DNA from: Planctomycetota bacterium
GTDB taxonomy: Bacteria > Planctomycetota > UBA1135 > GCA-002686595
DNA: 64,000 bases
Assembly: GCA_012959525.1 (NCBI GenBank)
Contig: DUDB01000047.1
Location: 175,726 to 239,725 of the forward strand
Reading direction: 5' to 3'
Shown here: positions 9,321 through 34,310 of the stretch, piece after piece
Position numbering within the stretch: the stretch's first letter is position 1
Layout of the letters: every line of letters begins with the position of its first letter
Made by a program: the position numbers and the translations under genes
Notes under the pieces: model-generated
What the model saw: the letters and a program-made list of their open reading frames with translations, nothing else
Told to the model about the DNA's origin: nothing
The model's database searches: none

Positions 9321-9395
9321 TGGAGCCAGAGATCGGATTTGAACCGACAACTTCTGCTTTACGAAAGCAGTGCTCTACCATTGAGCTACTCTGGC
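9321..9395 (-). tRNA. tRNA-Thr (anticodon CGT)
   Basis: Read on the minus strand, the 75-nt gene has acceptor stem GCCAGAG paired with CTCTGGC and a discriminator T. The D arm reads GCTC-AATGGTA-GAGC. The anticodon arm is CTGCT-TTCGTAA-AGCAG, giving anticodon CGT, which reads ACG (Thr). The T arm contains GGTTCAAATCC. The 3' CCA is encoded in the DNA (9321-9323). Confidence 0.97.
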
Positions 9396-9470
9396 TTGTT
9401 TTGGAGGAGGGAGCCCTCGGACGCCCCCGTCAGGGACTCTAGAGGAGTCCGTGGGAATCGCAAGCATACA

Positions 9471-9512
9471 AGTGGCCTCCCCCGGCCCAATCGGATTCCT
9501 GGGGAGGCCACT
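9471..9512 (-). terminator. Hairpin terminator candidate after the TPR/HEAT gene
   Basis: A perfect 12-bp stem, AGTGGCCTCCCC (9471-9482) with GGGGAGGCCACT (9501-9512), lies 46 bp downstream of the minus-strand TPR/HEAT gene. The 3' flank on that strand is TGTATGC, so the U-tract is poor. It would separate that gene from tRNA-Thr. Confidence 0.6.
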
Positions 9513-9558
9513 AGGTCCTTGAAGTGGGTTTCTGGGGCGTGAACCCCGAACCTCTTCG

Positions 9559-11676
9559 CTAGATGTCGCCGACGAGGCCTGCGCGCTCGCTACCGGTGAG
9601 GCTGGCCAAACCAATGGCCTGTGCTGCGGCAGTGCGCACGCTGAGAGACGCGTCCGAAAGGACCACGGCAGCCAGCCCGCCAAGGGAATCGCCACCCACG
9701 TCATGCCTGCCGAAGATTCCGGCCAAGGCACGACCAGCTGCGGTCCGAGCGGCGTCGGAGCGACTCTCGTCCGTGACGACGGCAAGGATGGCCTCAGCCT
9801 GGGCCATGGTGCCGGCACTCGCCAGAGCGCCCAGGGCAACGATGGTGACATCATCGGCACGGTGGCCGATGGGCTGGGCCAAACCACCCAGGGCCGAGCT
9901 GATGTCGGCACCGGAGTGTGCAAGCGCACCCAGGACCGCAGCGGCGCGACGGGACAGGTCGTCGGCTCGGGCGCGGTCGCCGGTCAGTCCGGCCTCAAGA
10001 ACGGCGTCCAACTCGGAGAGGTCGGAGAGGTCACTGATCACTCCACTGACCCGATCAGAATAAGCGTCTGCCGTGTCCGCGTCGGAAGAGACCAGGAAGA
10101 TGGGCGTGTCAGAACCACCCAAGCTGGCAGCGGCCAGAACCTGATCCACGGTCATGCCGCCGATCTGGTCACCGACGACGATGGCGTCAAAGCCGCTGAC
10201 GCGGCGCAGGAGGCTGATGCCTCCGGCTCCCGTATCGCGATGGTTCACGAGCACCCCGGGTCCAGCGATGGAACCGCTGAGGCTGTTAGCGCGATCCGCG
10301 TTGCCGTCGATGACGGCCACGAGGCGCATGATCTCACGACCCGTGGCGTCGCCCAAGGCGGACACGAGGGCGTCAGAGGCACCGCTTCCGGTACGAGCGG
10401 CGATGGCTCCCATGGCCACGGCGGCCTCGCCGCGGAGGGATCCATCACTGGAGCCGAGAGCCGCTTGGAGACCCGCGGTCCCACTGCCGGCACAGGCGCT
10501 CAGGACCTGGGCCAGGGCGGCACCCGTTGCGGGATCGTCGGCGACCACGCACCAGTGCAGAGCAAGATCCAGCGCTTCAACACCACAGGAGGCGGCGATC
10601 ATCGGACCACCGTCAGCGGCTCCCTGGTGATCGCTGATATCTTCACCGGAATCCGCTAGGCGGTTCAAGCGTGTGGAGACGTCCACGGCGGCACGCGCAA
10701 TACCCGCAAGGGCTTCGGTGCTGGTGGAAGCCTGAGAGAGAGCGGCCATGTAGGCCCGCTTGGACAGTGTGCTGTGATAGATGGAGCGAGGAGTGGCGGT
10801 GCCCGTGAGGCCACCGTCTGCCCAGGACCAAGTCACGTCGCTGTAGTCGAAATCGCGCAGGACGTTGTCCCGGCGGTAGTAGTAGTCCTCACCCAACATC
10901 AGGTACTGGGCCTGGGAGGAACCACTTGCCCCGCAATTGGAGGCGGCCTTCGTGGCGGCGCGCTGAACCTTGCCGTCGGCATCCGTGCCGGCAACCAGGC
11001 TGAGAGCGGCGGCGGCACGGCCGTCACCGATGTGCCCGAGCACCATGGCGACGTTGGCGCGCTGGTAGGCATCGCTGGTGTTGAGGGCTTCGATCAGGGG
11101 CAGGACCACGTCGGAGTCCATCTGCGTCAGCGAGTGCATGGCAATGACGCGCCAGTCCTCGTCCGCGGAATCGGCGAGAACGCGCACAAGACGAGGAACG
11201 GCGTACTCTCCGTGCTCGGCGGACAGGGCACTGATGGCGGCCCGACGCTCGGACGAAGTCGAGGCGCCCTTGAGCGTGTCAACCAAGCTGGCGATGGCAT
11301 CCGCATCGTTGCGACGCTCAGTGCGTCCCAATCGCGCACGGTCGAGGAAGCGCTTGGCGACGAGCTCGAACTCGCCCCCCTCCACCAACATGTCGAGGAA
11401 CAGTTGTTCGTCCGTGCTCTTCCAGAGCTCGTAGGCGGCGTCGTTGCTGGGGTCGCTCGCCAGCGCTCGTTGGAAAGCTTGCAAGGCCTCTGCCTTCTTG
11501 CCTTCCCTGAGAAGGCTGACACCCTCCTGGAAATCATCGGCGGCGTCTCCGCTCAGAACGGGGGCGGGGGCAGCGTGGACGGGGCTTGTGAAAGCCAAAC
11601 CAGTGATAGCCAAACCAGTCAGTGCCACACAGAGGCTCGTGGTCTTGCCCAGGTCGCGGATCAGAGCGAGGGTCAT
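9559..11676 (-). CDS. Exported TPR/HEAT-repeat protein
   Basis: 705 residues from the ATG at 11676, which has GAGGA 6 bases upstream; the open frame upstream is rejected because the signal peptide begins here (SLCVALTGLAITGLAFTSPVHAAPA, ending near residue 35). Residues ~43-75 are one TPR-like pair (EGVSLLREGKKAEALQAFQRAL). Residues ~135-240 contain HEAT-like repeats (VPRLVRVLADSADEDWRVIAMHSLTQM; VVLPLIEALNTSDAYQRANVAMVLGHIG), and Ala-rich HEAT-like repeats continue to the end. Around 480-560 a strand/helix segment (GFDAIVVGDQIGGMTVDQVL...TPIFLVSSDAD) looks like a receiver-domain fold without clear phosphoacceptor geometry. Inference: a periplasmic scaffold. No enzyme activity is visible. Confidence 0.8.
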   Translation of the reverse strand: MTLALIRDLGKTTSLCVALTGLAITGLAFTSPVHAAPAPVLSGDAADDFQEGVSLLREGKKAEALQAFQRALASDPSNDAAYELWKSTDEQLFLDMLVEGGEFELVAKRFLDRARLGRTERRNDADAIASLVDTLKGASTSSERRAAISALSAEHGEYAVPRLVRVLADSADEDWRVIAMHSLTQMDSDVVLPLIEALNTSDAYQRANVAMVLGHIGDGRAAAALSLVAGTDADGKVQRAATKAASNCGASGSSQAQYLMLGEDYYYRRDNVLRDFDYSDVTWSWADGGLTGTATPRSIYHSTLSKRAYMAALSQASTSTEALAGIARAAVDVSTRLNRLADSGEDISDHQGAADGGPMIAASCGVEALDLALHWCVVADDPATGAALAQVLSACAGSGTAGLQAALGSSDGSLRGEAAVAMGAIAARTGSGASDALVSALGDATGREIMRLVAVIDGNADRANSLSGSIAGPGVLVNHRDTGAGGISLLRRVSGFDAIVVGDQIGGMTVDQVLAAASLGGSDTPIFLVSSDADTADAYSDRVSGVISDLSDLSELDAVLEAGLTGDRARADDLSRRAAAVLGALAHSGADISSALGGLAQPIGHRADDVTIVALGALASAGTMAQAEAILAVVTDESRSDAARTAAGRALAGIFGRHDVGGDSLGGLAAVVLSDASLSVRTAAAQAIGLASLTGSERAGLVGDI

Positions 11677-25445: not shown

Positions 25446-25700
25446 CTAGCGGCGGCGGGCCTTCTTCTTGGCCTTCTTGCGAGCGGGCTTCTTCTTGGCG
25501 GCCTTCTTCTTAGCCTTCTTGCGTGCGGGCTTCTTCTTGGCGGCCTTCTTCTTAGCCTTCTTACGCGCAGGCTTCTTCTTGGCCTTCTTCTTGGCCTTCT
25601 TCTTAGCCTTCTTGCGTGCGGGCTTCTTCTTGGCCTTTCGTTTCGTTGCCTTCTTGCGGGTGGCCTTCTTCTTGGCCGCCTTGCGTTTCTTCTTCGCCAT
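25446..25700 (-). CDS. Lysine/alanine-rich histone H1-like protein
   Basis: 84 residues, about 60% Lys/Arg. It consists of repeats of KKKPARKKAKKKA, for example KKPARKKAKKKAAKKKPARK. In the DNA the repeat is about 42 bp with near-identical copies between about 25490 and 25620. An AAGGAG ribosome-binding site lies 8 bases before the ATG. Such proteins resemble bacterial histone-H1 homologues (Hc1/HctB, the AlgP-type C-terminus) that coat DNA through charge. Inference: a nucleoid-condensing protein that works with the adjacent HU. No folded domain is present. The repeats make its length likely to vary between strains. Confidence 0.88.
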   Translation of the reverse strand: MAKKKRKAAKKKATRKKATKRKAKKKPARKKAKKKAKKKAKKKPARKKAKKKAAKKKPARKKAKKKAAKKKPARKKAKKKARRR

Positions 25701-26127: not shown

Positions 26128-26553
26128 TCAGTTCCGCTCGGGTTTGAGCAACCCCGTCAGAAGTGCGCGTTCCTCATGCCAGTCATCGAGTTCGGGCGCG
26201 CTGAATGCCACGTCCCAGGAGACGAGAAGGAGGGTCTCGTGACCCATGGGCAGGACGGAGAACCCGCGTTCGTTTCCGCTCACCTTCAGGTGGGTGACCG
26301 CACCATTCCCCAAGGCAGAAAACACCTGAGCCAGGGCAGAGTAGGAGGCAGAACTCAGCGCGACCAGAAGATCGGGATCCTGGGTGGATAGATCACCTGA
26401 CGCCGCGATGGGGTGGCCCGCTGCGTCGATCACCATGGATCCCGCAACCCCCCCGCGTCTCAGCAGACCCTCAAGGCACGCTTGGATCTCCTCCGATTGA
26501 GCGGCGTGCCGCTCACGGTGCTGTCTTCGAAATTCCTGGTCCAGGTGACTCAT
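26128..26553 (-). CDS. Roadblock/LC7-type protein, MglB-like
   Basis: 141 residues from the ATG at 26553. The core fits the roadblock/LC7 fold: IQACLEGLLRRGGVAGSMVIDAAGHPIAASG (about 23-53) is the typical strand-turn-strand opening ('gv.gavvvd.dG..la..g'). A helix ALSSASYSALAQVFSALG and two further strands follow (THLKVSGNERGFSVLPMGHETLLLVSW). Roadblock proteins such as MglB bind MglA-type GTPases and regulate their nucleotide cycle. It is encoded 20 bp after the MglA-like gene, which supports the partnership. An N-terminal polar extension of about 20 residues is present. Confidence 0.85.
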   Translation of the reverse strand: MSHLDQEFRRQHRERHAAQSEEIQACLEGLLRRGGVAGSMVIDAAGHPIAASGDLSTQDPDLLVALSSASYSALAQVFSALGNGAVTHLKVSGNERGFSVLPMGHETLLLVSWDVAFSAPELDDWHEERALLTGLLKPERN

Positions 26554-26573
26554 GGTGAAAGTTTCCAGAGCCC

Positions 26574-27779
26574 TCAAAAGGGCTGTGCGAGGAAAGCCCC
26601 AAGAGCTATCCCCATCAAGAATGCCGTGACCACGTAGGCCGCGGTTGCCAGCGCCATGGAACGAGGGCGCACGCTGCTGGCCATGGGCGGTAGGCTGACA
26701 TGGCGCTTGGGCGATGCAGAGGTCGAGGGTGATGGCACGGCCGCGGATGGCTGGGCCTTTGGAAGCGCAGGGGCCAGCGGCGCCGAGGGCATGACCTCCC
26801 TGGAAGGTGCCACCGGGGGCAACGGAGCGTGCGTCACCGGCGGCCGGCTCTCCGGAGCTGGATCGTCGCCAACCAATGCGATGGGGCTCCCCAGCCGCAG
26901 GGACGGTCCGCTCTGGGGGGAACTCGAAGGCAGCTCCGGATACTCATTCGGCCTTTCTTGCGGTAGAGCCGACAGCGCGGAAGCAGCCATCGGCATGGGG
27001 GGCAGGGTCAATGAAGGCACAGCCGGGGATACCGAGTTCGGGGAGGGCTCTGGAATGGGCGCCGGCTCCTCGCAGGGTGTCGCATCGGGCTGCACCGGGC
27101 TTGGCAGATCGACAGCCACGGCTGATGCGACAAAGGATCCGGGTACGGGGGCAGCAGGGCCTTCCGAAGCTGCCACAGCACCCGTCTGCCGGTGAACGCG
27201 ATCCAGAACCAGGGCCGCCAGAGCCTTGAGAGTCGGAAACACGCCATGGCCCGTGTTGGCTACCGATTCCAAGTCGGGGACCTGACGCCCGCCCAAGGCC
27301 TCACGCAGGGCCGCCCGCAGCTCCTCCACAGGCATGGCGTTGGGCAGGTCCCGCTTGTTGAGTTGAAGAACGAGGGGCAGGTCGTCCAGGTCCTTGCCGT
27401 ACTCCGCCAGGTTCTCACGCAGGTTTGCGAGGGACTCGAGGTTGGCCTCAAGCATGTCTGCTGCGGAATCGGCCACGAAGACCACGCCGTCGGTACCTCT
27501 CAGCACGAGCTTGCGAGTGGAGTTGTAGTAGACCTGCCCCGGCACGGTGTACAGCTGGAAGCGAGTGCGCAGCCCAGCCACGGTGCCCAGATCCAGCGGC
27601 ATGAAGTCGAAGAAGAGCGTGCGATCTCCGTCCGTCGAGATGCTCGTCAGCTCACCCTTGCTCGAATCGGGGGCTCGCTCGTGAATCACCTGGAGGTTGG
27701 TCGTCTTGCCCGACATTCCCGGGCCGTAGAAGACGATCTTGGCCGTCACGCGTTTTTCGCTGAGCTGAATCTGAACCAT
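26574..27779 (-). CDS. mglA: MglA-like small GTPase with a Pro-rich linker and C-terminal membrane anchor
   Basis: 401 residues; the usual MglA is ~195. The GTPase is residues 1-197: P-loop GPGMSGKT (19-26), G3 as TVPGQVYYN (78-86), which carries the PGQ of the MglA group, and G4 LQLNKRDLP (139-147). Residues ~200-370 are a Pro/Ser/Ala-rich linker without fold, and a single hydrophobic helix (LATAAYVVTAFLMGIALGAFLA) ends the protein, so it looks tail-anchored. Soluble MglA of Myxococcus sets cell polarity; this form would be held at a membrane. It sits between a membrane TPR protein (2-bp gap) and a roadblock protein. Confidence 0.9.
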   Translation of the reverse strand: MVQIQLSEKRVTAKIVFYGPGMSGKTTNLQVIHERAPDSSKGELTSISTDGDRTLFFDFMPLDLGTVAGLRTRFQLYTVPGQVYYNSTRKLVLRGTDGVVFVADSAADMLEANLESLANLRENLAEYGKDLDDLPLVLQLNKRDLPNAMPVEELRAALREALGGRQVPDLESVANTGHGVFPTLKALAALVLDRVHRQTGAVAASEGPAAPVPGSFVASAVAVDLPSPVQPDATPCEEPAPIPEPSPNSVSPAVPSLTLPPMPMAASALSALPQERPNEYPELPSSSPQSGPSLRLGSPIALVGDDPAPESRPPVTHAPLPPVAPSREVMPSAPLAPALPKAQPSAAVPSPSTSASPKRHVSLPPMASSVRPRSMALATAAYVVTAFLMGIALGAFLAQPF

Positions 27780-27781
27780 GG

Positions 27782-28564
27782 TTACCGGCCTCCGGCCGGG
27801 TAGAGGTTGGGAGAATGGAAGAACGGGGATGTGTGATCTGGTGCCGATAGCAGGTACTCGTCGATCGCATCGAGCTCTGCTTGAATGCGAACGCCTAAGT
27901 CCGAGCTAACCGGGACCGCTTTGAGCGCTTGAGCGAATTCGAACCTAGCCTCTGCCATGAGACCGTCCTCCAAGAGGAGCCGACCTCGGGTGCATGCTGC
28001 TTGAGCGACGAGCACCTGCAGCTCGCGCTCGGACCGCAGAGCCTCTTCACGCCGAGAGCGGGACGCAGCACCGGCGACCTCACGGGCATGAAGTTGCTCA
28101 CGCTTCCTGCGCAGAGTCAGCCCCCCTATCCAGATAGGGTTATCGGACAGCAGGGAGTCCATGGCCGCCAGCCGGGCGCTCACACTGGCGGGCGCGTCGC
28201 TTCGAACTGCAGGCAAGCCCGCAACCAGTTCATTCAGTTGGGCCTCGCGCACGATGACCCACGACCCCACAAGGGCCAGCATGAAAGCCGTCAGGGCGAA
28301 GGTCAGGCGTGAATCCCGGACTCGTCGAAGCTCTCGCTGCTCACGCTCCATCCAGGCGATTCTCTGAGCCACATCCGCACGCGCAGGATCGAGCTCGAGT
28401 ACTTGTCGATAGGACTCTAGTGCCCGCCCCCATCGACCCGCCCTCATCAACTCACTCGCATCCTCGATCAGCATCGGCACGCTGCTCACATGGCTGGCGC
28501 CCGCCTCTCCAAGGAGGGGCGAGCCCCCGGCGGGGGCTGATCTTGTTTGATGGGTGACGGACAT
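27782..28564 (-). CDS. TPR-like membrane protein of the MglA module
   Basis: 260 residues from the ATG at 28564. After a polar N-terminus, one TPR-like unit (IEDASELMRAGRWGRALESYRQVLELDPARADV) precedes a charged helix, and a single transmembrane segment follows (LTFALTAFMLALVGSWVIV, about 97-115). The C-terminal ~145 residues are helical. They contain coiled-coil-like Arg/Glu runs and a second TPR-like pair (LLLEDGLMAEARFEFAQALKAVP). It is separated from mglA by 2 bp, so it is likely co-translated and a partner or membrane scaffold of the GTPase. No established family name is evident. Confidence 0.78.
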   Translation of the reverse strand: MSVTHQTRSAPAGGSPLLGEAGASHVSSVPMLIEDASELMRAGRWGRALESYRQVLELDPARADVAQRIAWMEREQRELRRVRDSRLTFALTAFMLALVGSWVIVREAQLNELVAGLPAVRSDAPASVSARLAAMDSLLSDNPIWIGGLTLRRKREQLHAREVAGAASRSRREEALRSERELQVLVAQAACTRGRLLLEDGLMAEARFEFAQALKAVPVSSDLGVRIQAELDAIDEYLLSAPDHTSPFFHSPNLYPAGGR

Positions 28565-28692: not shown

Positions 28693-31600
28693 TCAGTCCT
28701 GGGGGTCGATCGGCTGAGCCTGCAGCGTGCCCGCCTGGTTGCGAGCCACGTCCTGCTGGCCTGCGGCCAAGACAAGTGAGTCGCCAACCTGCAGGGCCTG
28801 GCTCAGGCTCAGGCGCACGTGGTCGGCCGAGAGCACGGTGACCGAGCTCACGCTGGCCGCACCGGTCGTGCTCCAGTTCGTCTCGTCGCCGCAGAACAGG
28901 CTGTCCACGTCCTCGTTGAACAGGACCTCGACGGTGGTGCCGGCGTTGTCCAGAGCGTAGTGCGTCCAAGCAACGTCCATGTCAGGAGCCGTGACGTCAC
29001 CGGTGACCGAACCGCCCGCCGTCAAGGGGGCCCCGGGCAGGTTGCCAGCGCAGTCGGCCACGTTGCCCACTGTCACGGACAGGGCGCTGGCCGGGTCGAG
29101 CTCCATGCCCTCGGGGAGGACAAGGGCGATGGTGTGGTTGAGACTGTTCCAGCGTGCCGTTACAGCCGACATGTTCACGGTGAACGATCCGTTGCTGATT
29201 GCATAGCGCAGGGGATCGATAGCCATGGTGATATCGAGAGGCTCGTTGAAGACCACGTGGACCTCATCGCCGCCCAACCCTTCCACGCTGACTCCCGCGA
29301 CGGAGACCAGAGTGGGTGCAGTGGAGTCATCAAGCACAAGCAGGGTCATGTCCCCCACGGCAGTGTTTCCGGCTAGGTCTTCAGCAGAGGCCTGGCTGAT
29401 CACGAGGCTCATGCCGGCGGTCACGGGCGTGCTGAAACTCACGCGCGCCACGGAGGGGCTCACCAGTGTGACCGAGTCCGCCAGTAGGCCAGGACCGAGG
29501 TCGTAGCTCGCTGCGAGCTCAACGGCGGAGCTGTAGACGGCCTCGTCGAAGGTGACCATCAACGAGCTCGGATCGAGCTTGTTCAAGCGTGCAGAAGAAG
29601 CCGCCTGGCTCGGACCATTGGTCACGTCGCCACCGACGCTCACCATCTGCGTGTCCGGAGCACTCAATGCGATGCCCTGAGCCGAGCGCAGAGGATCGCC
29701 TAGGAGGTTCATCGTCACATCGTAGAACTGAGCCGCACGCAGCTCCTGCCCCAGTGCCTGGGTCAGGGTGATGGTCAGGATCGATGCTCCGTCCCATGCG
29801 AACTCCGCGCTACTGAGGTCTATCTCCACCCCACCGGGGTTGGTCTTGATCGTGTACTGGCTCGGATCCGTGACTCCCCAGGGAGCCATGGGAGCGGAAA
29901 AATTCACGACGATCGTGTCGTTGTTCTCGCCCGAAACGGCCGTGGCAACGGGGGCGGCCCCGAGTCCGGGCCCGCTGGCGTCGGCCATGCTGATGGGGGT
30001 CCCCATGCAGGGGAACATCAGGTTGCCTGTCAGGTCCGTGGCACCGATCACGTCCAAAGTGTCCGTCAGGTTGACCGGGAAGGCATAGGTGAGTTGCGCA
30101 CCCAGTCCCCCGTCGAAAGACGTTGCCGAAGTCGGGTAACCGCGCAGGACGCCTGAGGCGCGCAATGCGTAGCGGATGCCATAGGGGTTGCTGAAGGCGT
30201 CGTACAGATCTTCAAGCTGGTCACAGGCTTCGGTGAAGCGGACGGTCACGACATTGTCGTTGGGTGCGTCCGAGCGCCAGGCCGTGCCCATGCCGGGCAG
30301 GTTGAACTCAGAGGTCAGGGTGCCTGCCAGGGAGGCGCCGTCGACCACGTTGCCGCCGATGTCGCGCATGCGCACGAAGGCTACCTGCACGCTATCGCCC
30401 TGCTTCAGGAACAGGCTGGCGCTGTCCAGGGTAACCAGAGCGCGCCGGGCGACGGCGTCGTAGGTCACGCTGCAGGCCGAGACGTCAAGCGGAGTTCCCA
30501 CGGGTGACTCGAAGGACCAGTTGGACAGGTTCATGACCTCACTCACCACCATGTCGTCATTGAAGACCACGTCGAGGGTGTCGTTGTCAGCCCCCTCGAG
30601 CGCGTTGGCGAAGAAATTCAAGCCCGCAGGAGCTGTCTGGTCGGTGGAACTGGGAAAGTGCGGACCTGAGATGCTGCCCATGGCATTGCCTGCCAGGTCG
30701 TCCACGTCGGCGTCCACACTCAGGGTCACATCGCCGGGCGTCATGATGCGATCACTGGAGACCACGCGCACGGTGGAACCATCAGCCAGGATTGTGGCCG
30801 AGGTCAGCGAGGCGGCGGGGCTGAACATGTAGTTGGTGGGGTCCTGGCCCTGCAGTGCGTGCACGTCCTCTGAGAAGCTGACGTCCACGGTGTAGCCCGA
30901 AGGGTCCACGGTGCGGTTCTGGACAAGGCCCAGGACACTCGGAGCACTGGCATCGCCAGTGGCGTTCACGGGACTCGCCTGAACGGTGAAGTCCTGGCCA
31001 TCCACGTCCACCTGGCTCACCGCATCCACGACGACGGCGTCGTTGTTGCGCATGTCGAAGTTGAGGCCCACGGTCAGGGTCTTGGCGCTGAGGTCGTAGG
31101 TATACACCTGAGAGGCCATATCGACGGAGATGCCGTCCACGGTCATGGCCCAACGCGCGGGGTCAGAAGCGAAGTCGGGGTCGATAGCCTGATCGAGAAC
31201 GACGAGAACCTGATCGCCACCGGCGTTTTCGGCCGTGAGCGCCGTAACAGAGGTGAATCCGTTGGGAGCATAGGTGCTCGTGAAAGACTCCTGGTTCGCA
31301 CCCAGGGGGTTGCCGTGATAGCCCGTCAGTCGAGAGTGGGCGATCAGGTCAAAATCGGGGGCGACGGGACGTGAAAAGGTCACGTGCAAGACGCTCGGAT
31401 CAAGCTGTTGCTCGACTCCGGTGACAAAGGTGTACCCCTCGGCGGCAGGGTGATCCACCACGGCGAAGCTACCGGAGGAGATTGAGATGTAGGGGTTCAT
31501 CGGCTTGCTGAAGCTGAACTCCAGGACGCGGCCAAACTCATCCACGTCGAGGCGCTGTACGACTGAGTCCACGGTCGGCACTTGAGTGTCACCCGTGGCA

Positions 31601-32280
31601 TTGCCTATCACCGGGCTGGAATCCGCGACCACGTCTGAGACGCTCTTGACGCCGCTGACGCTCAGCCAGAAGTTCGCGTGCAGGTTCGCATTCGCTCCTA
31701 GGTCAAACGTCGCTACTCCGCTGACTGCGTCGTAGGTCATGTTGGTCCCCGTCATGTCCACGGCCAGACCGGCCACCATGAGCTGCCAGTTGGAGGGGTC
31801 GTCAACTCCGGCGTTCACCAGGCGGGCGCCGCTGAAGGTCACTTCCAGGTAGTCGCCTCCCAGAGCCGCGTCGGATGTGTCCTGCGTGGCGGTGGTAATG
31901 GTGAAGGTGGGTGCAGCGCCGTCGGTTGTGGTGACGGTGTGCCAGTCGGAGCTCGTGAAGTTGCTCAGCACACGCACACGGTGGCTAGGTGTCACGCGGG
32001 CGTCCCATGTCACGATGAGATCGCTTCCGCTGGGGGCCATGGCAATGGCCGACTGGCCCCCATCGCACTCCACCTGGGACATGTCAAACACACCGTGCGA
32101 GCCGCTGAAGGAAAGCAGGGTGGTCAGGCCGGTAGGGTCCAACCCGAGATCCTGTAGAGCGCTCTCCATGGAAGAGCCGCCCGCGGGATCGCCCGAGGTG
32201 GTCACGTGGCTGGAGCAGGCAGCGCCCAGGAAGGCAAGACCGGTGAGAATCCAAGTGCGGGTAGAGGTGCCAGTCTTCAT
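28693..32280 (-). CDS. Large SbsA/Ig-like repeat lipoprotein
   Basis: 1195 residues from the ATG at 32280. The lipoprotein signal is ILTGLAFLGAACSS, with Cys near residue 22. The mature part is about nine to ten repeats of ~100 residues, each with the core 'D.....V.F......' followed by 'NW' or 'Y' and a late 'D.AGN' turn, as in LEVTFSGARLVNAGVDDPSNW and VHVVFNEPLDITMAIDPLRY. These resemble bacterial Ig-like domains of the SbsA/Big_5 type. It is Asp/Ser/Thr-rich and Lys-poor. Inference: an outer-membrane-anchored, extracellular adhesive or structural protein. It is transcribed in the same direction as the MglA module, 128 bp upstream. Confidence 0.82.
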   Translation of the reverse strand: MKTGTSTRTWILTGLAFLGAACSSHVTTSGDPAGGSSMESALQDLGLDPTGLTTLLSFSGSHGVFDMSQVECDGGQSAIAMAPSGSDLIVTWDARVTPSHRVRVLSNFTSSDWHTVTTTDGAAPTFTITTATQDTSDAALGGDYLEVTFSGARLVNAGVDDPSNWQLMVAGLAVDMTGTNMTYDAVSGVATFDLGANANLHANFWLSVSGVKSVSDVVADSSPVIGNATGDTQVPTVDSVVQRLDVDEFGRVLEFSFSKPMNPYISISSGSFAVVDHPAAEGYTFVTGVEQQLDPSVLHVTFSRPVAPDFDLIAHSRLTGYHGNPLGANQESFTSTYAPNGFTSVTALTAENAGGDQVLVVLDQAIDPDFASDPARWAMTVDGISVDMASQVYTYDLSAKTLTVGLNFDMRNNDAVVVDAVSQVDVDGQDFTVQASPVNATGDASAPSVLGLVQNRTVDPSGYTVDVSFSEDVHALQGQDPTNYMFSPAASLTSATILADGSTVRVVSSDRIMTPGDVTLSVDADVDDLAGNAMGSISGPHFPSSTDQTAPAGLNFFANALEGADNDTLDVVFNDDMVVSEVMNLSNWSFESPVGTPLDVSACSVTYDAVARRALVTLDSASLFLKQGDSVQVAFVRMRDIGGNVVDGASLAGTLTSEFNLPGMGTAWRSDAPNDNVVTVRFTEACDQLEDLYDAFSNPYGIRYALRASGVLRGYPTSATSFDGGLGAQLTYAFPVNLTDTLDVIGATDLTGNLMFPCMGTPISMADASGPGLGAAPVATAVSGENNDTIVVNFSAPMAPWGVTDPSQYTIKTNPGGVEIDLSSAEFAWDGASILTITLTQALGQELRAAQFYDVTMNLLGDPLRSAQGIALSAPDTQMVSVGGDVTNGPSQAASSARLNKLDPSSLMVTFDEAVYSSAVELAASYDLGPGLLADSVTLVSPSVARVSFSTPVTAGMSLVISQASAEDLAGNTAVGDMTLLVLDDSTAPTLVSVAGVSVEGLGGDEVHVVFNEPLDITMAIDPLRYAISNGSFTVNMSAVTARWNSLNHTIALVLPEGMELDPASALSVTVGNVADCAGNLPGAPLTAGGSVTGDVTAPDMDVAWTHYALDNAGTTVEVLFNEDVDSLFCGDETNWSTTGAASVSSVTVLSADHVRLSLSQALQVGDSLVLAAGQQDVARNQAGTLQAQPIDPQD

Positions 32281-32524
32281 GGGGAGAACTCGATACATTC
32301 GGGGTTCGATTGCGGCTCGTGGAACAGGGGTAGGTCCACGGAGAGGGTGGGGAACAGGGGGCTACTGCCGCAGGAGCAATCGCCCGTCTTTACGCGGTAT
32401 CGGCGAGTGGCCGCACCGGCTTGAGCCCGTTCGCGAAACCTGCGCACAACCCTGCCCCCCACGCAGCCGGTCCGCCGTCCCACGATGCCCCCCATTCTGG
32501 GGCCGCCCAGGGGGGCAGCGCCCC

Positions 32525-34099
32525 TCAGGGGAGGATCAGGGGCTCCACCACGTGGGGCGAGAGCACCGTTCCCGTGGGCGTACGAAAGGCCGCCTGCAGA
32601 GCAATGTGTGTCCCAATCAAAGACGCATCATTGGGGATGGTAAGGACAAACTGGGAGCGGCCCGCTTGGGGCACCTGCCAGAGATAGCTGAGGGTCTTGC
32701 GGTCGATGTGCAACAGACCCTGGACGCCGGGGAACTGGACTGGTGTCGACCGCTGTCCGTATAGCAGGAAGGCGAAGGAGGCCGAACTCAGGCGCGTGTC
32801 GACGGCAAGGCCCGCTCCAAGCTCGGCAGGCCCGAGTTGAACCAGTTCCCGGTCAGCGCTCTGGTAGAGGGCTACCCCGCCCGTGTTGGAGAACTGGCTG
32901 CGGTGGCTGTCCTGGTAGGCAATGACGACCTGGGTGCCACTGTCGTCGAGCTCAAGATCGCGCACGCTCCCGGGCAGTGTCGCTTCCAGCACGGCCTGGT
33001 CCACGCCCCTGTCGAACACGAACACCTCCGCATCTCGGCCGTTGCCCCAGGTTCCGAATGCCACGCGTGACCCATCGGGGCTCACGTCCACGACCTCAAC
33101 CCGGTTCTGGACGCCACCTGCCACGCCAGGCAGGTCCAGGGAGTTCAGAGGCCGCCCGGTCCGGGTATCCCAGACCTCAAGCTCCACGTCCCGCCCCGCA
33201 CTCGATTCCCACCATCCGACGCCCAGGACGTCTCCTGCATGATCCAGGTCCAGGGCGGTGGCAATCTGGACAGGGCTGCGGGTGACATTGAGACGGTTCA
33301 CCCAGCCCCCCGCTTGATCATCCAGGAGGGCTACCTGGCCCGCGCCTCCCACGGCCACGGTGCTGCCACTCTCGTTCAAGGCCAGGCAGCGCACCGCCGA
33401 GTTGAGGGGCTCCGCATGCAGCACACCGCCCGCGGAATCCAGGACCAGGAGGGTCAGGCCCGTGGAGACCGCTGCCCGGGTGCCATCGGCAGAGGTGGCC
33501 AGGGCCTCCAGGTTCAGTGCTGAGAACGTGCGGCGCACCAGAAGTGCGCCGTTCGTGCCATCCAACCAGTCCATTTGAATCCGACCTGTGGCGTTGTTCC
33601 AGACCGCGACAAGAATCCGCTCTCCTTCCCTGTCCACCACCATCCGCGCCGGGCCGTTGGTATCGAAGCCCACGTCGTGGGTCCATAGGGGGGTCATGAT
33701 GCCCGCGCTGGGCACGCTGCCGCCGTCGAATCCGTGCACCAGGGTCTGGCGCTGATAGGGACCGGGGTTGGGACGCTGAACGATGCTGAAGAGGGCATCG
33801 GCCCGGCGACCGGCCGCGCCGTGCAGGTAACTCGCGCCGAGCTGAGAGATGGGGTCGCTAGCTCTGGGAGCCTGAAGCCCACTGGAGGCGCTGTGGAACA
33901 GCATCATGCCCCCCGATGGCCCCTTGCTGCCTGCCCAGACGAGGTCCTCGCGGGCGGCGAAGGCAACCGCGTCGGGCACCCAGGGGGCCCGGGTGGTTGC
34001 GTCGTGGTGCCAGCGCTCCCCCCCGGCAAAGGGGTCCTGCGCCAAGGCCTGAGAAGAGAGGCAGGTGAGAAGGAGGGCGAGCGATGCGGAGCGGATCAT
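32525..34099 (-). CDS. Secreted beta-propeller-like protein
   Basis: 524 residues from the ATG at 34099, chosen because a signal peptide follows at once (MIRSASLALLLTCLSSQALAQ). The rest is a series of short strands with WD40-like or YVTN-like units: LEALATSADGTRAAVSTGLTLLVLD, CLALNESGSTVAVGGAGQVALLD, VVDVSPDGSRVAFGTWGNG and VRDLELDDSGTQVVIAYQD. These give an apparent seven-bladed propeller of variable repeats. No active-site motif is visible. The function is unknown; such proteins often bind partners or surfaces. It lies upstream of the SbsA-type gene on the same strand with a 244-bp gap that shows no clear ORF. Confidence 0.78.
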   Translation of the reverse strand: MIRSASLALLLTCLSSQALAQDPFAGGERWHHDATTRAPWVPDAVAFAAREDLVWAGSKGPSGGMMLFHSASSGLQAPRASDPISQLGASYLHGAAGRRADALFSIVQRPNPGPYQRQTLVHGFDGGSVPSAGIMTPLWTHDVGFDTNGPARMVVDREGERILVAVWNNATGRIQMDWLDGTNGALLVRRTFSALNLEALATSADGTRAAVSTGLTLLVLDSAGGVLHAEPLNSAVRCLALNESGSTVAVGGAGQVALLDDQAGGWVNRLNVTRSPVQIATALDLDHAGDVLGVGWWESSAGRDVELEVWDTRTGRPLNSLDLPGVAGGVQNRVEVVDVSPDGSRVAFGTWGNGRDAEVFVFDRGVDQAVLEATLPGSVRDLELDDSGTQVVIAYQDSHRSQFSNTGGVALYQSADRELVQLGPAELGAGLAVDTRLSSASFAFLLYGQRSTPVQFPGVQGLLHIDRKTLSYLWQVPQAGRSQFVLTIPNDASLIGTHIALQAAFRTPTGTVLSPHVVEPLILP

Positions 34100-34310
34100 G
34101 TTCGATGGACGGGACCAAGTCAGAATGGCCCCCACAAACCGTACCCCGCAGGCCTGCCGGGGCCCCATCCCACAGGCCAGCGGCCGTAGAGGGGGCCAAG
34201 GCCCTGGCCAGGAGGGAAAGGGTTTCCACTTCGGGTAAGGCCAGCCTACCCCTCTGGGATCTGGAGCCCCGAAGCACTAGAATCCGCCCCCGCCGAACAA
34301 AACGGCGAAC

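Follow-up and report, generated by a model that had tools for sequence, protein, structure and literature searches.

Three adjacent genes of a Planctomycetota bacterium, encoding a membrane TPR protein (G1), an MglA-type GTPase with a hydrophobic C terminus, and a roadblock protein (RB2), raise the question of whether a Ras-like polarity switch can be assembled at a membrane. The Myxococcus xanthus polarity module involves the RomR/RomX GEF, RomY, Frz input, and polar localization, and, to our knowledge, the MglA systems studied so far have a soluble GTPase that moves between the cytosol and the pole. A preliminary description had taken the three genes for a membrane-bound version of the MglA/MglB switch with an added scaffold. 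We addressed this question in the window, meaning the whole 64,000-nucleotide stretch of DNA that was analyzed, and in the genomes of relatives, most of the genomes compared being metagenome assemblies.

The three genes and their products

The genes lie on the minus strand in the order G1, MglA, RB2, and the ORF reading confirmed the gaps of 2 and 20 bp that the preliminary description had given (Table 1). It had also placed a terminator 3' of the roadblock gene. A run of seven T is present after the RB2 stop codon, but a terminator scan there returned no match and the fold was no better than that of shuffled sequences (z 0.14), so the terminator was dropped. A second genome of the window's genus (L041/L081) has the identical three-gene order with the tight spacing kept, which supports the starts of the three ORFs; because the three-gene form recurs in this way, an assembly artifact was discarded as its source. 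The two genomes differ by ~0.5 synonymous changes per site, and all ORFs are intact in both. The dN/dS between them is 0.33 for G1, 0.20 for MglA, and 0.13 for RB2, and pN/pS within the genus is 0.044 for the G domain of MglA, 0.098 for its tail, and 0.51 for its linker. Purifying selection acts on all three genes within the genus, unlike what would be seen if they were decaying.

Table 1. Positions of the genes and features of the module in the window
Feature	Position	Strand	Remarks
G1 ORF	ATG 28564, end 27782	-	260 aa; TPR_2; family f1 homologues
G1 TPR hairpin, residues 28-58	28391..28483	-	model helices 28-41 and 45-58; Pfam TPR_2 here
G1 TM segment, residues 87-105	28250..28306	-	hydropathy 2.19 over 19 residues; Arg-rich N-side flank
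G1 C-terminal helical TPR-like region, residues 125-240	27845..28192	-	model helices; TPR_2 of a relative at the equivalent place
G1/MglA junction	27780..27781	-	site where relatives hold G2 and RB1, ~1.6 kb
MglA ORF	ATG 27779, end 26574	-	401 aa; Ras-like GTPase; similarity to MglA structures
MglA G domain, residues 1-195	27195..27779	-	GPGMSGKTTN, DRT, TVPGQ, NKRD; invariant columns
MglA Pro/Ala-rich linker, residues 196-379	26643..27194	-	poorly conserved; pN/pS ~0.51
MglA C-terminal membrane anchor, residues 380-398 of 401	26586..26642	-	hydropathy 2.09
RB2 ORF	ATG 26553, end 26128	-	141 aa; roadblock/LC7; Robl_LC7 match

Upstream of G1 on the same strand lie genes for a Big_5 lipoprotein (28693-32298) and a secreted propeller protein (32525-34168), both syntenic in most of the family. 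An 84-aa Lys/Ala-repeat protein of histone H1-like composition (25446-25700) adjoins an HU gene, and similar Lys-rich ORFs also occur near the locus in relatives.

The GTPase matches solved structures at 3e-71 (Thermus thermophilus MglA, 3t12_A) and 2.4e-69 (5ymx_A), the Thermus and Myxococcus proteins both matching at ~1e-70, and Pfam returned a generic Arf match. Aligned with relatives, it retains 100% of the MglA motifs, the invariant columns being G19-T27, T78, V79, P80, G81, Q82, and N141-D144. Thr78, which replaces Asp in the TVPGQ motif, is a mark of the MglA family (PMC3000849). Its G domain is 70% identical to those of relatives, compared with 75% among the relatives themselves. The hydrophobic segment near its C terminus recurs in nearly all complete MglA proteins of relatives; the TM segments here and in G1 were called by hydropathy alone. 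We read the window protein as a genuine MglA whose tail anchor is conserved; its genome (G000) yielded no second MglA. Since its 401 residues include a linker and an added TM anchor, it departs from the single-domain small GTPase of a survey of prokaryotic Ras-like GTPases, and its likeness to MglA lies in the domain and does not extend to the whole architecture.

RB2 carries the roadblock/LC7 fold (Pfam Robl_LC7, 37.6 bits; cut-off, 23). It fits the RB2 profile of the family, in which it is itself included, at 1e-37 and the profile of RB1, a second roadblock protein of relatives, at 1e-5; profile score and gene position together led us to reject it as an RB1 ortholog. In relatives, RB2 is a complete MglB that has the C-terminal helix (2.4e-31 to 6izw). 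In M. xanthus, this helix aids nucleotide exchange (PMC6785124). It is conserved in relatives and absent from RB2 of the window's genus, and the conserved stretch GSFAATKEMARLLGE has also been lost from the window protein. Mean identity to the relatives' MglB is 25%, compared with 62% among the relatives, and the NCBIfam MglB model scores 16.3 bits (cut-off, 200). RB2 is thus placed, by profile and position, as the counterpart of MglB, and it appears to be a diverged MglB descendant without the C-terminal helix; because it is so diverged, its binding to MglA is not assured. We also considered positive charges in MglA alpha-5 as a mark of lost C-terminal-helix binding, and these were uninformative because the five-gene relatives vary as well. 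The genome contains another roadblock-like match (C36:17255-17566).

G1 matches Pfam TPR_2 N-terminal of its TM helix (30.4 bits; cut-off, 27). In its AlphaFold model (mean pLDDT 88), residues 28-58 and 148-240 form helical hairpins that flank a long helix containing the TM segment; the best structural matches of the model are TPR proteins, with weak E-values (~6e-3), and the relatives' counterpart has Pfam TPRs also past the TM. TPR-like units thus lie on either side of the helix, and the N-terminal hairpin is probably cytoplasmic and the C-terminal region probably periplasmic. Of the features named in the preliminary description, these units, the tail-anchored MglA, and the roadblock fold of the last product all held.

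A five-gene operon and its reduced forms

Family profiles revealed a conserved order in relatives: G1 or a PATAN protein, G2, RB1, MglA, RB2. MglA was matched in 49 of the 60 relatives searched, and G2 and RB1 precede it in 78 of 80 named Planctomycetota loci. The two exceptions are L103, where no G2 is seen because the locus starts too late on its contig, and L081, the three-gene form in the second genome of the window's genus. G2 was found at 1e-20 in at least 122 of 392 sampled genomes of the phylum, a lower bound since five candidates were scored per genome. Outside the window's family, G2, RB1, and MglA occur in order in 16 of 18 loci, with the PATAN gene directly upstream in 14 of 16, and the MglA C terminus is hydrophobic in all complete loci except L192. 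Poly30, Pla163, and Pla86 are named strains with the module. A five-gene membrane-anchored switch is conserved across much of Planctomycetota.

The first gene in families other than the window's encodes a protein of ~1060 aa with a DUF4388/PATAN domain, TPRs, one TM, and, after the TM, a PQQ/BamB-type propeller. G1, whose homologues were found in family f1, aligns with the center of this protein (hhalign 99.6%, E 7.7e-24) and by this match is a homologue of the TPR-TM core in this PATAN-TPR-TM-propeller protein. The secreted propeller gene upstream of G1 was considered as the detached propeller, and this found no support (1.5%). The TPR protein G2 shows roadblock topology in its C-terminal part: of 36 members, 18 match Robl_LC7 with E values of 1 or lower (best, 2e-5), the G2 profile matches RB1 (78%), and the model of Poly30 G2 (pLDDT 91) ends helix-two strands-helix-three strands-helix. 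The closest solved structures to RB1 are 7f8m and CvnB5 (3leq, E 3e-10). The last gene of the operon encodes full-length MglB.

Several loci depart from this layout. A Lys-rich tail replaces the relatives' TM segment in L192 (G165; 9321-9998, MglA orientation), and L191 (G115) and L195 (G225) hold G2 and RB1 together with no MglA gene nearby. In L080 of G017, on the same contig as L149, MglA and MglB are joined in a single open frame that runs through the anchor; this is either a real fusion or a stop codon lost by mutation or sequencing error.

The exact three-gene order is confined to the two genomes of the window's genus, so the gene order that the preliminary description had singled out is nearly private to one genus; the module that is widely conserved is the five-gene one. 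Whole-genome searches of G000 and G002 found neither G2 nor RB1, and their relocation elsewhere was rejected on this ground. Synteny around the window locus matches that of relatives, and a tree of neighboring genes places the window's genus as sister to L055 (support 0.97). L055 has all five genes, and for this reason we read the window set as a reduction: comparison with relatives shows G2 and RB1 as lost in the genus and MglB as strongly diverged and lacking its C-terminal helix. G1 of the window is also shortened at its N terminus; a tie between this and the loss of G2 and RB1 was dropped, as G1 is short in the Poly30 lineage too, which has kept both genes.

At the same syntenic spot in G090 (L197, 8054-9750), only two genes are present, one for a G1-like protein and one for a diverged MglA, and there is no roadblock gene. 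A loss shared with the window's genus was rejected, since the tree puts the two in different clades; G090, of another genus of the family, thus reduced its module independently. Because it keeps G1 and a diverged MglA, these two are the pair that persists.

Relation to described systems

Pairs of MglA and MglB, roadblock partners, and PATAN proteins as occasional neighbors are already known (PMC4316618). The preliminary description knew of no account of the three-gene combination. Our search of open-access papers found no description of a five-gene operon with tail-anchored MglA across Planctomycetota, with most subscription papers and all supplements outside the search. Open-access literature on MglA and roadblock proteins in Planctomycetes and on tail-anchored MglA yielded nothing relevant. 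The five-gene unit is apparently undescribed as such.

With the MglA-MglB pair of M. xanthus and T. thermophilus, the window set shares the MglA G domain (~1e-70) and adjacent genes, and the RB2 of relatives is likewise a full-length MglB with the C-terminal helix. It differs in the long linker and membrane anchor of MglA, in an RB2 without that helix, and in an operon that codes for a membrane TPR protein, to which relatives add RB1 and G2.

TPR proteins are linked to MglA in other bacteria, where Bd2492 of Bdellovibrio (PMC3983030) and SgmX of M. xanthus (PMC11580455) both bind it directly. Both are soluble and encoded elsewhere, whereas G1 has one TM helix and its gene adjoins mglA; binding by G1 is putative. 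PATAN proteins beside group 1 and 5 mglA genes were noted by Wuichet and Sogaard-Andersen (PMC4316618), and the first gene of our relatives also carries DUF4388. Those neighbors were noted as occasional, whereas here a five-gene order is fixed across much of one phylum, and G1 of the window has retained no more than the TPR-TM core.

Output, alternatives, and a proposed mechanism

PilM scored over the cut-off in all 11 tested genomes with the full or reduced module and in none of six without, an association that is weak because those six all come from one clade and relatedness was uncorrected. In the phylum sample, PilM was present in 119 of 122 genomes with G2 and 209 of 270 others (Fisher p 4e-8, kinship ignored). 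Family f5 (G040, G044, G048, G051, G054, G057, G060, and others) has no MglA, no G2, and no PilM over the cut-off. With low confidence, we suggest that the output is local control of a surface machine, type IVa pili being the best candidate.

The Streptomyces conservon (CvnA-CvnB-CvnC-CvnD) likewise combines a membrane protein, a roadblock protein, and an MglA-type GTPase (PMC4316618), and the relatives' RB1 resembles CvnB5. It is possible but unlikely, given this parallel and the propeller past the TM in the relatives' first protein, that G1 senses the envelope and that the GTPase governs not motility or polarity but transcription, secretion, or cell-wall growth. Against this reading, Pfam identified no histidine kinase and no CvnC gene among the genes of the window and the relatives' loci, and PilM co-occurrence points weakly to pili. 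The module also differs from the conservon in that the GTPase is itself membrane anchored and the relatives' partner is MglB-type with a C-terminal helix.

The module could also have been re-wired, with RB2 no longer an MglB-type GAP but serving G1 or another GTPase, or only tethering MglA, which would be cycled otherwise. The low identity of RB2 to the relatives' MglB while MglA stays at 70%, the loss of its conserved stretch and helix, and the second roadblock-like match in the genome speak for this reading, but we consider it unlikely, as RB2 still directly follows mglA in a presumably co-transcribed position, fits its profile, and is under strong purifying selection, and the genome has yielded no second MglA. 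Two lost genes, a truncated and strongly diverged RB2, a shortened G1, and the still more reduced form in G090 might suggest a degenerating remnant with no working GTPase switch, but the intact ORFs, the low dN/dS and G domain pN/pS, and the retained close spacing make this very improbable.

We conclude that the three genes are probably functional and represent a reduced version of the Planctomycetota operon, which would encode an inner-membrane MglA switch. The preliminary reading of a membrane MglA/MglB pair with a scaffold is thus borne out as far as a true MglA, a conserved anchor, and a roadblock gene in the place of MglB are concerned, and has to be amended in that the set is a reduced five-gene operon with a diverged RB2. 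In the proposed mechanism, MglA would be held at the inner membrane by its tail anchor and switched in place, not via shuttling between cytosol and pole. The cytoplasmic TPR hairpin of G1 may dock or activate MglA, a role proposed because SgmX and Bd2492 bind MglA elsewhere, and its periplasmic part may report envelope state or position. RB2, probably a homodimer, would act as the predicted MglB-type GAP, and loss of the MglB C-terminal helix, G2, and RB1 would have made the control of GTP loading simpler. As its output, the switch would probably control a surface machine locally, type IVa pili being favored, and polarity is another possible output. Conservation of the anchor and G domain within the genus while the linker drifts counts for this membrane-switch reading; the L080 fusion, if real, counts against it, because MglB would then sit on the far side of the membrane.

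A broader proposal, which we regard as doubtful at present, is that Planctomycetota possess a membrane-fixed MglA complex distinct from all described MglA systems, in which the tail-anchored GTPase sits on up to three roadblock domains (G2, RB1, and MglB) and on TPR scaffolds tied to a trans-membrane sensor. In these bacteria, which lack FtsZ, the complex would position pili or the sites of growth and division, and the window's genus would have its minimal working form. Its layout would be comparable to those of the eukaryotic Ragulator and the conservon.

If true, a membrane-fixed MglA, encoded alongside a membrane partner and several roadblock proteins, would give a new picture of how a bacterial Ras-like switch is placed and regulated. 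The natural reductions to three and two of the five genes show which parts are dispensable. The window's family includes the cultured Saltatorellus-clade strains Pla163 and Pla86 and, by gene tree, Poly30. Members of this clade are reported to change shape, fuse, and switch between budding and binary fission, and to have no FtsZ (PMC11032199, PMC11481906). The module is testable in bacteria of very unusual shape and division.
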